Positions 28,065 to 33,376 of a stretch of 64,000 nucleotides of DNA are shown here, piece by piece. The stretch is from Candidatus Macondimonas diazotrophica. Lineage in GTDB: Bacteria > Pseudomonadota > Gammaproteobacteria > UBA5335. The notes under the pieces are model-generated. The model was not told the origin of the DNA. It worked only from the letters and a program-made list of their open reading frames with translations, and made no database searches. The DNA is taken from the NCBI RefSeq assembly GCF_004684205.1, contig NZ_SRIO01000007.1, forward strand, positions 62,001 through 126,000, given 5' to 3'. Position 1 is the first letter of the stretch. The number at the start of each line of letters is the position of its first letter. The translations under genes were made by a program, and so were the position numbers.

Positions 28065-28106
28065 TTGATCTGAATCAAGTCAGTGGTCTCGATGGATCGC
28101 CACAAT
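28065..28106 (+). promoter_or_regulatory. FNR-type operator and class II promoter of the hydrogenase operon
   Basis: TTGAT-CTGA-ATCAA (28065-28078) is a perfect FNR/ANR half-site palindrome. CACAAT (28101-28106) would serve as -10, putting the start near 28113 and the operator centre at about -41.5, the class II activator position. This predicts induction at low oxygen. Confidence 0.7.
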
Positions 28107-28143
28107 GACCTTCGTGGACGGTAGCCAGAACGGGGAGGTGGAT

Positions 28144-29310
28144 GTGCCTGAAGCCATGCTGGATCTCCCTGGACTCGAGCGTTTGCTGGACAATCTGATG
28201 TCCGCCGGGCATGCCGTGGTGGGCCCCACGGTTCGCGACGGCGTCATTGTGTATGACACGTTGACGGGGGTCGAGTCGCTGCCGAGGGGATGGCATGACG
28301 AGCAGAGACCCGGCTACTACAGACTCCATCATCGCATCGACGAGAACCGCCTGTTCGATCACACGGTCGGGCCGCACAGCTGGAAACGGTTTACCCATCC
28401 GGCCACCGAATCCCAGGTTCGCATCTCCCGCACGCCGGACGGCCGGCTCCATTTCGAATCCCTTGTCAAAAATCCACCGCCGACGGCGTTGATCGGGGTA
28501 CGACCCTGTGAACTGGCAGCGCTGTCGGTGCAGGATCGCGTTTTGGCGGATGCCGAGCACGCCGATGCAAGCTATCAGCGACGCCGTGCGGCCATGTTTG
28601 TCGTAGCCGTGCAGTGCGGCCGAGCGGGGGGAACCTGTTTCTGCGCGGACATGGGCACCGGTCCACGCGCCACGACCGGGTTCGATCTGGCACTGACCGA
28701 GCTGGTCTCATCCGCGGGTACCGTGCGCTGGCATGTCGAAGCCGGTTCGGCGCGGGGTGCGGAATTGCTTGGCCAGCTTCCGGCAACGCCTGCGCAGCCT
28801 TCGGACCGGCAAGCCGCCGAGCAGGTCTGGGCCGGGACGCGCGACCAGATGGCGACGCGCATGCCGGCCCAGGGTGTGCGCGAATTGCTCTATCAGAAGC
28901 TCGATGATCCACACTGGGAAAGCCTGGAATCGCGCTGTCTGGCCTGCGGCAACTGTACGGCGGTGTGTCCAACCTGCTACTGCACCCGCGTGGTGGATGC
29001 GGTGGATCCAGTGGGCGGAACCGCGGAGCGCCGCCAGGAATGGGAATCGTGTTTCAATCCGGAGTTTTCCCATTTACCGGGCGGCAGTGTGCGAGGCAGC
29101 ATCGCGTCGCGTTACCGGCAGTGGATCACCCACAAGCTCGCCAGCTGGCACGATCAGTTCGGCAGTTCAGGATGCGTAGGGTGCGGGCGTTGCATCAGTT
29201 GGTGTCCGGTCGGGATCGACATCACGGCGGAAGTGGCGGCCCTGCGTGCCACGCCGGCGCAGACCCACGGCGTCACGGCGCCTTCGGAGAGTGATCATGG
29301 ATCTTGTTGA
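28144..29310 (+). CDS. hydB: NAD(P)-linked [NiFe] hydrogenase (group 3b, sulfhydrogenase-type), beta subunit
   Basis: A 388-residue iron-sulfur subunit resembling the beta subunit of group 3b hydrogenases. Two [4Fe-4S] clusters are ligated by [16 protein letters not shown] and [16 protein letters not shown]. An upstream [15 protein letters not shown] and [13 protein letters not shown] region is typical of this HybA-like/anaerobic-sulfite-reductase-A relative. It transfers electrons between the flavin and small subunits in the cytoplasm. GTG 28144 is chosen because GGGGAGG (28132-28138) precedes it; ATG 28105 would lie upstream of the inferred transcription start. It is the first gene of the operon. 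Confidence 0.9.
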
Positions 29311-29746
29311 TCAGCTGGCGAGCCACGCATTCTGCGCCGGCATGGCGCCCCAGGTCCGTGCATCGCTGGCAGCCTGTGGCCGCGAAGAAGCGTTCGAACC
29401 CGGTGACTTTCTACTGCGGCAAAACGCGGTGGCGGCGACGTTCTACCTGATTCTGGACGGGCAGGTTGAAATCAAGATCGCCGATGCTCCGGTCGGGCAC
29501 GCACCGCTGGAGACGCTGGGAAAAGGCGACGCGGTGGGCTGGTCCTGGTTCTTGCCGCCGCATCGCTGGCATTTCGACGCCGTCGCCCGTGTTCCCACCC
29601 GCGTGCTGGCCTTTGATGCTGACTGTCTGCGCCAGGCAATGCAGGCGGACAGCGCGGTCGGCTATGCCGTCACGCGCGGCCTGCTCGAGGTCGTCGTCCA
29701 GCGCCTGCAGGCAGCCCGCATGCAGCTCTCGGACCTTTATGGCTAA
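29297..29746 (+). CDS. Cyclic-nucleotide-binding-like (CRP N-terminal) protein without DNA-binding domain
   Basis: A 149-residue protein consisting of a cNMP-binding-type beta roll (EAFEPGDFLLRQNAVAATFY, LDGQVEIKI) and the C-helix only; no helix-turn-helix follows. The phosphate-binding cassette is replaced by GDAVGWSWFLPPHRWHFDA, lacking the usual GE...R-(A/S)-A pattern, so cAMP binding is doubtful. It overlaps hydB by 14 bases and the gamma-subunit gene by 8, so it is embedded in the hydrogenase operon and likely co-expressed. A sensor or regulatory subunit of the hydrogenase is possible (inference). Confidence 0.8.
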   Translation: MDLVDQLASHAFCAGMAPQVRASLAACGREEAFEPGDFLLRQNAVAATFYLILDGQVEIKIADAPVGHAPLETLGKGDAVGWSWFLPPHRWHFDAVARVPTRVLAFDADCLRQAMQADSAVGYAVTRGLLEVVVQRLQAARMQLSDLYG

Positions 29747-30599
29747 TCAGGTGGCCGATTGCAGCCAGTCCAATGCCGCATTGGTGCCGGCGGCGTGGCG
29801 CATCGTGTCCCGCCGCGATGAAACCCCCGATGGGAGCGTGTTCACCTGGGAAATCCGTCCTGAAACAGGCGCGGTTCCGGCCTACCGGCCCGGACAGTTC
29901 AACATGCTCTATGCCTTCGGCGTGGGCGAGGTGCCGATCTCGATCAGCGGGAACGGGGCCGAATCCGGGACGCTGATGCACACCATGCGCGCAGTGGGGC
30001 GGGTCACGCGGGCCATGCAGACCTTGCGCGAGGGCGACACCATCGGCGTGCGTGGACCCTTCGGCACGGCTTGGCCCGTGGAAACCGCCCTCGGGCGCGA
30101 TCTGGTCTTGGTCGCGGGTGGCATTGGTCTTGCGCCATTGCGTCCCGTGGTGTGCTACGCCATGCGAAACCCGCTGGCTTTCCAGCGCGTGTTTCTGCTG
30201 ATCGGCTGCCGCGATCCACAAAGCGAGCTGTTCCGGGACGATGTGATTGCCTGGTCGCGCCGTCCGCATCTGCAGGTCGAGGTGACGGTCGATCGTGGCG
30301 GGCCGGCCTGGCGCGGCCACGTCGGGGTGGTGACCAAGCGGGTGCAGCGCGCCGATTTCGATTCGGCCAGCGCGATAGCCTTGCTCTGCGGCCCGGAACC
30401 GATGATGCGTTTCGCTGTGCTGGCCTTGCAGCAACGCGGTGTCGGCGATGAGCGAATCTTCGTCTCGATGGAGCGCAACATGCAGTGTGGCGTTGGCACC
30501 TGCGGGCATTGTCAGTGGGGCCGCTACATCCTGTGCCGCGACGGCCCGGTGCTGCGCTACGACGAGGTGGCTGACATTTTCGACGTGCGGGAGCTGTGA
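29739..30599 (+). CDS. hydG: Group 3b [NiFe] hydrogenase, gamma (FAD/NAD(P)H diaphorase) subunit
   Basis: A 286-residue flavoprotein of the ferredoxin-NADP reductase fold. It has a FAD-binding beta barrel with [20 protein letters not shown], a nucleotide-binding [17 protein letters not shown] segment and C-terminal [2Fe-2S] ligands in [17 protein letters not shown]. Related to PyrK and sulfhydrogenase gamma, it exchanges electrons with NAD(P)H. The start is the ATG at 29739, overlapping the preceding gene. Confidence 0.92.
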
Positions 30600-30600
30600 C

Positions 30601-31374
30601 ATGGCGGTGTTGCCCCGGTTGGCGGTCTGGAAATTCGCATCCTGCGACGGGTGCCAGCTGAGCCTGCTCGATTGCGAAGACGAACTCCTGTCGCTGGGTG
30701 AGCAGGTTCAGTTCGCCAATTTTCCGGAAGCGTCCAGCGACATCCAGCCTGGCCCCTACGACATTTCGCTGGTGGAAGGGTCGGTGTGCACGCCCCATGA
30801 TGCCGCACGTATCCAGCAGGTGCGGCAGCAATCCCGCATTCTGGTCACCATCGGTGCCTGCGCCACGGCCGGCGGCATCCAGGCGCTGCGCAATTTCGAC
30901 GATGAAGCGGCCTACCGCCAGGCGGTGTATGCCCATCCTGAATACATCCACAGCCTGGCCACGGCGACGCCGATTGCCGAGCACGTCCCCGTGGATTTCG
31001 AACTGCGCGGCTGTCCTGTCCGTAAGGAGCAGTTGCTGGAGGTTTTGGGCGCTCTGCTGCGCGGCCACGCCCCACGGCTGACCCAGGGCAGCGTCTGTGA
31101 GTCCTGCAAGGCGGCCGGTCATCCCTGCGTTTTGGTTGCGCACGGGACGGCTTGCCTGGGCCCGGTGACACAGACCGGCTGCGGGGCTTTGTGTCCGGCG
31201 GTGGGGCGCGGCTGCTATGGCTGTTTCGGTCCGCGCGAACAGGCCAATACCCAGGCCTTGAGCGCGCAACTCGCGGCGCTGGGCCAAACCGGCCCCGCCC
31301 TCAAACGCCTGTACCGAACCTTCAACGCCGCAGCGCCGGCCTTCGAAGCGGAGAGTCATCGCCATGAATCCTGA
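30601..31374 (+). CDS. hydD: Group 3b [NiFe] hydrogenase small (delta) subunit
   Basis: A 257-residue small subunit. The proximal cluster ligands are in [31 protein letters not shown] and [10 protein letters not shown]. Two further clusters are supplied by the Cys-rich tail, including [11 protein letters not shown] and [12 protein letters not shown]. There is no Tat signal, so the enzyme is cytoplasmic. It starts one base after hydG, and its 3' end overlaps the large-subunit gene by 11 bases. Confidence 0.93.
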
Positions 31375-32662
31375 AAGCCGCACCCTGCGGGTGGATTATC
31401 TGGCGCGTGTGGAAGGCGAGGGCGCCTTGCATCTGGATATCGAGGGTGGCCGGGTGACGCGAGCAGAGCTCGCAATCTTCGAGCCGCCGCGCTATTTCGA
31501 AGCCTTGTTGCGGGGACGGGATTTCCGCGAGACCCCCGACATCACCGCGCGTATCTGCGGCATCTGTCCCGTGGCTTACCAGATGAGCGCCTGCCAGGCG
31601 ATGGAGGATGCCTGCGGGGTGGTGCTGCCGCCGCCGGTCCTTGATCTGCGCCGGTTGCTGTATTGCGGTGAATGGCTCGAGAGCCATGGATTGCATGTCC
31701 ATCTGCTGCATCTGCCCGATTTTCTCGGCTTTCCTGACGCCGTCCAGATGGCTCGGGTCCACCCCGAGGCGGTGCGGCGCGGGCTGCGGCTCAAGAAGCT
31801 GGGCAACAGCCTCATTGAGATCGTGGGTGGGCGCGCCATCCATCCGGTGAATGTACGGGTGGGGGGGTTCTATCGAGCGCCGGCGCTTGAAGCCCTGCGC
31901 GCGCTCTTGCCGGAACTGGACTGGGCGATCGATGCGGCCGAGGAAACCGTGCGCTTCGTCGCCGGCCTGGATTTTCCGGATCTCCAGATGGATTACGAAT
32001 TTTTTTCCCTCGTGCATCCGGATGAATATCCCATCTACAGCGGGCGCCTTGCATCGAGTTGCGGTGCCGAGTGGGCTGTGGCCGATTTTTCCGATGCCCT
32101 GCGCGAAGGTCAGGTGCCTCATTCGACGGCCCTGCAAAGCGTCCGGCCCGATGGCACGCCGGTTCTGCTCGGCCCCATGGCCCGCTATGTGCTGAATCGC
32201 GAGCGCTTGACGCCGCGCGCCCGTGCGGCCGCGGCGGACGCTGGACTGGACCAGGGCTACTGCAATCCCTACCGGGCGATTATCGCGAGGGCGGTCGAAA
32301 TCCTGTTTGCCTGTGAAGAGGCCAGGCGATTGATCGAGGGCTATCGGCCGTTTGAACCAGCCGCGGTGACGGTGACGCCGCAGGCCGGGGAAGGCCATGG
32401 TGCGACCGAGGCGCCACGCGGGACGCTCTATCATCACTATCGCATCCGGGATGACGGCCGCATCGAATACGCGCGCATCGTGCCGCCCACGGCGGTCAAT
32501 CAGGCGCGTATCGAAGCGGACTTGGTGACCTTGGCGCAAACGCATCTGCATCTGGATGACGACGGCTTGCGAGCCCTGTGTGAGCAGGCGATCCGCAGCT
32601 ACGACCCCTGTATTTCCTGTGCCACCCACTTCCTCAAACTCGACATCCGCCGGCAACCATGA
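31364..32662 (+). CDS. hydA: Group 3b [NiFe] hydrogenase large (alpha) catalytic subunit
   Basis: A 432-residue subunit binding the Ni-Fe(CN)2CO centre. The L1 motif is [12 protein letters not shown] with ligands Cys65 and Cys68; the position often His in other groups is Tyr. The L2 motif is [10 protein letters not shown] with Cys416 and Cys419. Ten residues follow His422, the expected C-terminal peptide removed by the maturation protease encoded next. It interconverts H2 with protons and electrons, reversibly with NAD(P)H through the other subunits. All catalytic ligands are present. Confidence 0.94.
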
Positions 32663-33123
32663 GCGGCGCGCTGGTCGTCGGCCTGGGGACGCCGGACCGC
32701 AGGGACGACGGGGTCGGTCTGATCGTGGTGGAACGGCTGCAGGAGGATGTGCCGGCGGGGGTGGTCATCCGCTCCCTGCCGCGTCAGGCGCTGGATCTGC
32801 TGAGTCTGTGGGCCCACTTCGAGCGGGTCTGGGTTGTGGATGCGATCCAGTCCGGCGCACCGGCGGGCACCTGTCACCGGGTGCAGCCGCCGCTTCCGGC
32901 CAGTGCATTCGGGCGCGGCGCGCATTCCACTCATGGCCTGGGGCTGGCCGAAAGCATTGCCCTGGCGGAAAGTCTGGACGTTCTGCCGGCGCATCTGGTC
33001 GTCTACGGAATCGAGGCGGGCTCCGTGACGCCGGGTGAGGGCCTGACGCCGCCGGTGGCCGCAGCGGTCCCGAAGCTCGTGGCGCAGTTGCGTCAGGAAC
33101 TCAAGGAGATCCTTCATGCATGA
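32659..33123 (+). CDS. [NiFe] hydrogenase maturation protease (HycI/HybD family)
   Basis: A 154-residue endopeptidase that clips the C-terminal tail of the large subunit after nickel insertion. The motifs are VVGLGTPDRRDDGVGL (first metal ligand Asp in place of the common Glu), WVVDAIQSG (second Asp) and HSTHGLGLAE (His), as in HybD. It overlaps hydA by four bases and hypA by eight, so it is presumably dedicated to this enzyme. Confidence 0.9.
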   Translation: MSGALVVGLGTPDRRDDGVGLIVVERLQEDVPAGVVIRSLPRQALDLLSLWAHFERVWVVDAIQSGAPAGTCHRVQPPLPASAFGRGAHSTHGLGLAESIALAESLDVLPAHLVVYGIEAGSVTPGEGLTPPVAAAVPKLVAQLRQELKEILHA

Positions 33124-33376
33124 ATCAGGATTGATCACCGCCCTGTTGCGGCAGGTCGAGGCGCAGGCCCGGGCTGCATCGGCCAGCCGGGTGGTGGGCA
33201 TCGAGCTCTGGGTCGGTGCGCTCTGTGGCTTTTCCGAGGCGCATCTGCGGGAGCATTTCGCGCATGAGGCGCAAGGGTCGCTGGCCGAGAATGCAATGCT
33301 GAGTGTGGCATGCTCCGAGGACATCACCCATCCCGATGCCGCTCATCTGATGCTCCGGTCCATCGAGATTCGCTGA
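33116..33376 (+). CDS. hypA: Mini-HypA: hydrogenase nickel chaperone lacking the zinc domain
   Basis: An 86-residue protein that begins MHESGLITALLRQVEAQA, the nickel-binding MHE start of HypA, and contains the core fold (VVGIELWVGALCGFSEAHLR). It ends in LRSIEIR as HypA proteins do. The family's usual length is about 113-118; the two CxxC motifs of the zinc domain are absent, with only SVACSEDITHPDAAH in their place. Reading frame and overlaps are clean, so this looks like a real short form rather than a frameshift. HypB is not encoded nearby. Confidence 0.8.
   Translation: MHESGLITALLRQVEAQARAASASRVVGIELWVGALCGFSEAHLREHFAHEAQGSLAENAMLSVACSEDITHPDAAHLMLRSIEIR

Follow-up and report, generated by a model that had tools for sequence, protein, structure and literature searches.

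In a window of 64,000 nucleotides from Candidatus Macondimonas diazotrophica, a small gene, flanked by beta on one side and gamma on the other in a group-3b-like [NiFe]-hydrogenase operon, encodes a stand-alone cNMP-fold protein. With a probability of roughly 0.6, we consider it an accessory, probably regulatory, HoxI-like subunit docked on the electron-input half of the enzyme. The protein is real, conserved and under-studied, and it is close in concept to HoxI, i.e., a variant of a known idea. In the proposed mechanism, for which we infer subunit status, dimerisation, partner, ligand and direction of regulation, the protein would most likely dimerise through its C-helix. The dimer would dock on gamma, perhaps together with beta, and tune the activity or activation of the flavin subunit, like HoxI on the 3d diaphorase. 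If there is a signal, it could be a different nucleotide, for instance NAD(P)(H), or else a redox or protein contact. Group 3b hydrogenases occur widely, in aerobes as well as in anaerobes, and little is known about the control of their direction. If a large 3b lineage has a built-in sensor subunit, its ligand would be a testable handle on the making versus the consumption of H2.

The gene and its operon

All four group 3b subunits, i.e., sulfhydrogenase-type alpha, beta, gamma and delta, are present in the operon (Table 1). Among the NCBIfam models, ShyA fits alpha best and ShyD fits delta best, and since both scores stay below these equivalog cut-offs, the enzyme is called group-3b-like. The beta subunit matches the NCBIfam models AsrA, ShyB and HydB, all below their own cut-offs, and the nearest solved chain to gamma is the gamma subunit of sulfhydrogenase 1 (9nez_C, 6.8e-43). 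The slot assigned to the protease is annotated as maturation protease in the related loci L025 and L026. The HypA downstream of it is short in these loci as well (L025, 10859-11170; L026, 10859-11143). In all three 3b operons checked, the family match extends no further than profile positions 65-67 of 112, and the usual zinc-finger cysteines of HypA are missing from the translations.

Table 1. Features of the hydrogenase operon and of the cNMP-fold protein, in window coordinates.
Feature	Position	Strand	Basis and remarks
Hydrogenase beta, 4Fe-4S, sulfhydrogenase/AsrA type	28105-29310	+	401 aa; Pfam Fer4_22 3.2e-31
cNMP-fold accessory protein (probable role)	29297-29746	+	149 aa; without DNA-binding domain; PF00027 53 bits; AlphaFold2
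Residues 81-97, GWSWFLPPHRWHFDAVA, replacing the phosphate-binding cassette	29537-29587	+	GxSWxxPPxxW in linked relatives
Predicted C-helix, residues 119-148, ending in RLxxxRxxLLDxY	29651-29740	+	DSSP on model
Hydrogenase gamma, FAD/NAD(P)-binding, 2Fe-2S	29739-30599	+	286 aa; PF00175, PF10418
Hydrogenase delta (small) subunit	30601-31374	+	PF01058; NCBIfam ShyD 156 bits, under cut-off 460
Hydrogenase alpha (large, [NiFe])	31364-32662	+	PF00374; RICGIC and DPCxxC motifs in translation
Hydrogenase maturation protease (by position)	32659-33123	+	4-nt overlap with alpha
Short HypA	33116-33376	+	86 aa; PF01155 39.5 bits, profile 1-65/112

The 149-residue protein matched the Pfam family cNMP_binding with an E-value of 3.5e-14 and a score well above the cut-off of 27.5 bits, and no second domain was found in the Pfam search. 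AlphaFold2, supplied with a five-sequence alignment of the window protein and four relatives from related loci, predicted a beta roll followed by a C-helix of 30 residues. The model reached a mean pLDDT of 87.4 and a pTM of 0.80, with the confidence dropping to a mean of 67 at the last residues. The Pfam score above the gathering threshold and the beta-roll fold place the protein in the cNMP-binding domain superfamily. The C-terminal helix-turn-helix of CRP/FNR regulators is absent; the reading frame stops after the C-helix. A stand-alone beta roll with C-helix and without DNA-binding domain is what the sequence-only reading had described, and this observation holds, while its interpretation as a regulatory hydrogenase subunit is partly supported.

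The gene was compared with its counterpart in locus L002, the protein of which is 87% identical. Differences were distributed over the three codon positions as 8/15/59, and among the 149 codons 49 showed synonymous changes only and 19 changed the amino acid. Because of this codon-position pattern, the reading frame is taken to be a real gene, which, judged by the same comparison, is under purifying selection.

From its start codon (ATG 29297), the gene shares 14 nt with the 3' end of beta, and the same overlap was found in the annotated coordinates of L025, L026 and L033. At the other end (TAA 29744-29746; gamma start 29739), 8 nt are common to both genes. The overlaps on both sides are thus as previously described; however, the special lock on production that had been derived from them is weakened. 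From beta through hypA, neighbouring genes overlap by 4-14 nt or are 1 nt apart at all six junctions, and therefore the overlaps are the style of this operon and nothing special to the cNMP gene. Overlaps between the operon genes may well couple their production. No sigma-70-like promoter site was found between 27700 and 30700, which is an uninformative result.

The cassette and the C-helix

The replacement of the phosphate-binding cassette by a GWSWFLPPHRWHF stretch, as claimed earlier, was confirmed at residues 81-93. The conservation of this motif was counted in 36 sequences, i.e., 34 beta-cNMP-gamma sequences including that of the window, plus G004 and G390. G81, W84, P88 and W91 are each kept in 35 of them and S83 in 33, and W82 is less conserved than the neighbouring motif residues. 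At the end of the C-helix, R136, D146 and Y148 were found in 35 and R141 in 33 of the same 36 sequences.

In canonical cNMP cassettes, an acid after the first glycine and an arginine contact the nucleotide. Both are replaced in the window-type protein, so binding of cAMP in the usual mode is improbable, and a canonical cAMP role for the GWS-type protein seems unlikely. A PS00889-type cNMP pattern gave no match in the window protein or in any of the 60 linked, orphan and HoxI sequences, while it matched 4 of 18 other cNMP proteins. By group, these were 0/37 beta-cNMP-gamma sequences (35 loci including the window, plus G004 and G390), 0/11 orphans, 0/7 with the gene before beta, 0/3 with the gene after alpha and 0/2 HoxI.

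The closest solved fold to the window protein is PDB entry 3mdp, the putative cyclic nucleotide-binding protein Gmet_1532 from Geobacter metallireducens (Z 20.5, rmsd 1.5 over 132 residues, 24% identity to the model). Its cassette region, GVSSLIKPYHY, also misses the acidic residue; however, it contains neither of the conserved W84 and W91 of the window-type protein.

In CRP relatives, the C-helix is the dimer helix. Conserved tryptophans and prolines in place of the cassette, and a C-terminal RLxxxRxxLLDxY as strongly conserved as the cassette region, would also fit a ligand-free structural or assembly factor, i.e., a dimeric cNMP scaffold which stabilises or joins hydrogenase protomers and in which the tryptophans fill the old pocket. 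We regard this explanation as possible, but rather unlikely. Many 3b enzymes manage without the cNMP protein, orphan copies persist with no hydrogenase genes nearby, and the precedent HoxI has been described as regulatory. The regulatory subunit is the reading that we prefer.

Distribution in and away from 3b loci

Genome samples of 299 Pseudomonadota, 296 Actinomycetota and 151 Chloroflexi were searched with the delta subunit at cut-offs of 1e-30, 1e-40 and 1e-40, respectively. Gene order was opened at 27 of 27 places (own locus excluded), 36 of 54 and 24 of 28; places beyond these were judged by coordinates, and L230 was opened later. In 5 of the 87 loci beta was not found, and these were left unscored.

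The sequence-only reading had expected the linkage to be conserved in related hydrogenase loci, which is true for part of them. Among 53 3b loci close to that of the window, from three phyla, 31 carry the cNMP gene (24 in the order beta-cNMP-gamma and 7 with cNMP before beta), but 20 do not (2 unscored). The close carriers make up 2/9 loci in Pseudomonadota, 13/26 in Actinomycetota and 16/18 in Chloroflexi. The gene is likewise missing from 28 of 34 distant 3b loci, and 3 carry it after alpha (3 unscored); L230 is one further after-alpha locus. Positions of the gene in 3b loci are consequently between beta and gamma, before beta, or after alpha. On a quick delta tree, its presence and absence require 6 changes. 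This mixed presence, together with the changes on the tree, argues that the protein belongs, as an accessory, to one large 3b lineage in which it was apparently lost again at several later points, and that it is not a universal subunit. As so many close and distant loci are without the gene, the protein is dispensable for catalysis as such.

For the Hyd3 enzyme of M. smegmatis, the published gene table has entries for protease, alpha, delta, gamma and beta, and none for a cNMP gene (PMC2799521). MSMEG_3930, considered as a candidate, was rejected since the same table lists it as gamma. In five Chloroflexi 3b loci (L140, L145, L147, L149 and L150), a separate gamma gene was not found and the cNMP gene lies upstream. 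Measured from stop to stop, the 'beta' reading frames of L140, L149 and L150 encode 656, 774 and 676 aa, respectively, and the long frames of all five loci appear to be beta-gamma fusions. A Pandoraea plasmid carries a 3b operon with an eroded cassette motif (L033, 6980-10006). Its PLSDB table contains no large-subunit gene, and only a partial match was seen; possibly, this operon is decaying.

The family itself was followed with a profile (A2) built from 14 relatives and run on the three phylum samples. In Pseudomonadota, the scores were bimodal (223, 209 and 208 bits, with the next at 79). Of 53 matches with at least 100 bits, 35 have a 3b delta gene no more than 6 kb away, corresponding to 3/3 in Pseudomonadota, 13/28 in Actinomycetota and 19/22 in Chloroflexi. 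G390 is an exception, as its cNMP gene lies on a short contig which also bears the start of a beta gene. In 95 nearer genomes, six further matches of at least 100 bits were obtained besides the window's own, five of them with beta and gamma genes and one, in G004, with gamma alone. With regard to named plasmids, ten regions were opened among 43 matching records. Five show the 3b arrangement (L025, L026, L028, L029 and L033), and the remaining ones comprise three Streptomyces orphans, one CRP regulator and one HoxI.

Fourteen strong copies in Actinomycetota are not linked to any 3b delta gene. One is an extra copy in G561, which also has a linked one; the others are spread across eight genomes, seven of which have a size of 7-10 Mb. 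No hydrogenase subunits were found around eight of the Actinomycetota orphans (L219, L223-L229), seven of which come from genomes of 7-10 Mb, on the 10-11 kb fetched, and none were confirmed near the Streptomyces plasmid orphans L027, L032 and L034, where a weak gamma-like match in L027 turned out to be an annotated globin-domain protein. With strong relatives and no hydrogenase subunits nearby, these orphans indicate that the family can work without the enzyme. In the trees, the orphans L223-L229, L027, L032 and L034 nest among hydrogenase-linked Actinomycetota copies.

The surroundings of such copies bear on another explanation, namely that the protein is a hypoxia or dormancy signalling protein, which is co-transcribed with the hydrogenase and acts on another target. 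The Streptomyces plasmid orphans are located near universal stress, CBS, nitrate reductase, globin or response-regulator genes, and linked copies in Rhodococcus have stress-protein or CBS-domain neighbours. In S. coelicolor, SCO0168, a candidate member of the family, is reported as Crp-like, beside a stress-protein gene and with OsdR sites (PMC5069765). However, the three strong matches of the Pseudomonadota sample all lie inside a 3b operon, and the genes upstream of the window locus are housekeeping and not stress genes (names by inspection), which makes this explanation improbable. That the gene is a degenerating remnant of a CRP/FNR regulator trapped in the operon, as the missing DNA-binding half might suggest, can practically be dismissed given the pattern of purifying selection, the conservation across three phyla and the full-length fold with a good AlphaFold2 model.

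Partner subunit and relation to HoxI

For the preferred regulatory subunit, the available signs point weakly to gamma, or to the beta-gamma half, with gamma as the best-supported candidate partner. In 31 of 31 close carrier loci, the cNMP gene lies between beta and gamma or before beta. In G004, a genome of the window's family that is 99% complete, the gene is found just before a gamma gene. This gamma-like gene has lost most of its FeS-cluster cysteines. At 1e-5, the genome gave a single small-subunit match, a Hox-type gene that belongs to a Hox operon on a different contig; the cNMP contig was scanned for alpha and beta beyond its first 4 kb. At this place (L035, 5494-6815), the cNMP and gamma-like genes adjoin hypF, hypD and hypE (names by inspection).

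Distances between the cNMP proteins of 31 loci were further compared with those of each subunit, regressed on the other three. For gamma, r was 0.23 and was reached in 21 of 2000 permutations, although this signal is small and comes from one of four tests. For beta, delta and alpha, values of 0.10, 0.11 and 0.12 were obtained (401, 321 and 180 of 2000 permutations, respectively).

Two indels track the cNMP gene, namely a 4-residue insert in beta (window residues 201-204) and, in gamma, the absence of a 2-3-residue insert after residue 40. They were considered as a docking signature and rejected. L120, L123 and L124, which lost the gene recently, have retained the 'with' form in both subunits, and L127, another recent loser, has retained it fully in gamma and for the most part in beta, so the indels are lineage markers. 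Moreover, L146 and L148 carry the cNMP gene yet show the 'without' form.

HoxI of the Cupriavidus necator HoxFUYHI2 enzyme is also a stand-alone cNMP-fold protein encoded in the operon of an NAD(P)-linked [NiFe]-hydrogenase (hoxF-U-Y-H-W-I-hypA-B-F). The window protein shares this general setting with HoxI, whereas its host enzyme is 3b-like and that of HoxI belongs to group 3d. Published descriptions present HoxI as a dimer bound to the diaphorase module and as an NADPH activation site (PMC3702609), and as a regulatory dimer on the 3d enzyme (PMC12809855). The four-subunit C. necator enzyme is reported to be active without HoxI, which is hence dispensable (PMC3702609), and high salt together with alkaline pH is stated to dissociate HoxI (PMC3189943).

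With these precedents, a built-in regulatory subunit, which the sequence-only reading had put forward as notable, is no novel idea, and 3b genes of this kind are in print as well. The Hyd-3b cluster of 'M. acidophilus' 29 is stated to encode a HoxI with a cyclic nucleotide-binding domain (PMC12319191), and the 3b cluster of Rhodococcus equi 103S lists a cyclic nucleotide-binding domain protein (PMC13332983). Both genes are mentioned in passing there and are likened to that of the window by description. Among open-licence papers, no study of the cNMP protein as a 3b subunit was found, and the sequence search of the PDB returned no HoxI chain.

The name HoxI, as used for the 3b gene in the former work (PMC12319191), was not adopted here. 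Bit scores and trees disfavour orthology. The cassette region of HoxI reads GELGFIDQTPH (GELxFIDxTPH in two HoxI), in contrast to GWSWFLPPHRW in the window protein. Two HoxI proteins scored 43 and 50 bits against a 3b-only profile, compared with 35-93 bits for 17 of 18 unrelated cNMP proteins and 3 bits for the remaining one. Trees placed HoxI with ordinary CRP-type domains at a support of 98/87, and of 96/88 with long rows removed. From these trees, L004 (from the genome of L141), L112 (broken frame) and L021 were dropped, and the second tree was also built without the five long-branch rows L212, L215, L018, L019 and L015. However, an AU test did not reject a union of HoxI and the GWS proteins in one clade (p 0.257). 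Going by the trees and the generic bit scores, the 3b protein and HoxI are probably not orthologues, which, considering the AU test, is favoured and not proven.

Three strong Chloroflexi copies are exceptions to the 3b linkage. The first one, L222 (2283-6539), is a 3d operon with a GWS-type cNMP gene in the slot of HoxI, between hoxW and hypA. Its gene order is HoxU-like, HoxY (44%), HoxH (45%), HoxW (28%), cNMP, hypA, hypB and hypF. The cNMP protein scored 102 bits with the 3b profile and nests with two 3b-linked proteins at a support of 100/98, and a HoxI query gave no match to it at 1e-3. In L036, the corresponding slot is occupied by a true HoxI (55% identical). Therefore, two cNMP types share one slot of 3d operons, on the evidence of one sampled operon for each type and of C. 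necator. This points to a pair of distinct cNMP subfamilies with the same job. This arrangement would allow a comparison of two distinct proteins for one function, and it cautions against naming the 3b gene hoxI. Both the probable distinctness of the 3b protein from HoxI and the GWS type in HoxI's 3d slot look new.

As a speculative extension, which we put forward with considerable reserve, NAD(P)-linked group 3 hydrogenases might have recruited at least two distinct cNMP subfamilies, HoxI and GWS, for one job. The GWS type would then be a nucleotide or redox sensor with a tryptophan-rebuilt cassette that gates the flavin (gamma/diaphorase) subunit, and Streptomyces would have kept it after loss of the hydrogenase and re-used it in a low-oxygen response.

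The two other Chloroflexi exceptions, L220 and L221, come from one genome. On the 6 kb fetched for L221, no hydrogenase gene was found. In L220 (5078-8567), the related cNMP gene is found opposite another redox cluster, in which a beta-gamma pair is accompanied by a gene with a weak FrhB-type match and which is possibly an electron-transfer cluster of the Flx/Hdr type.
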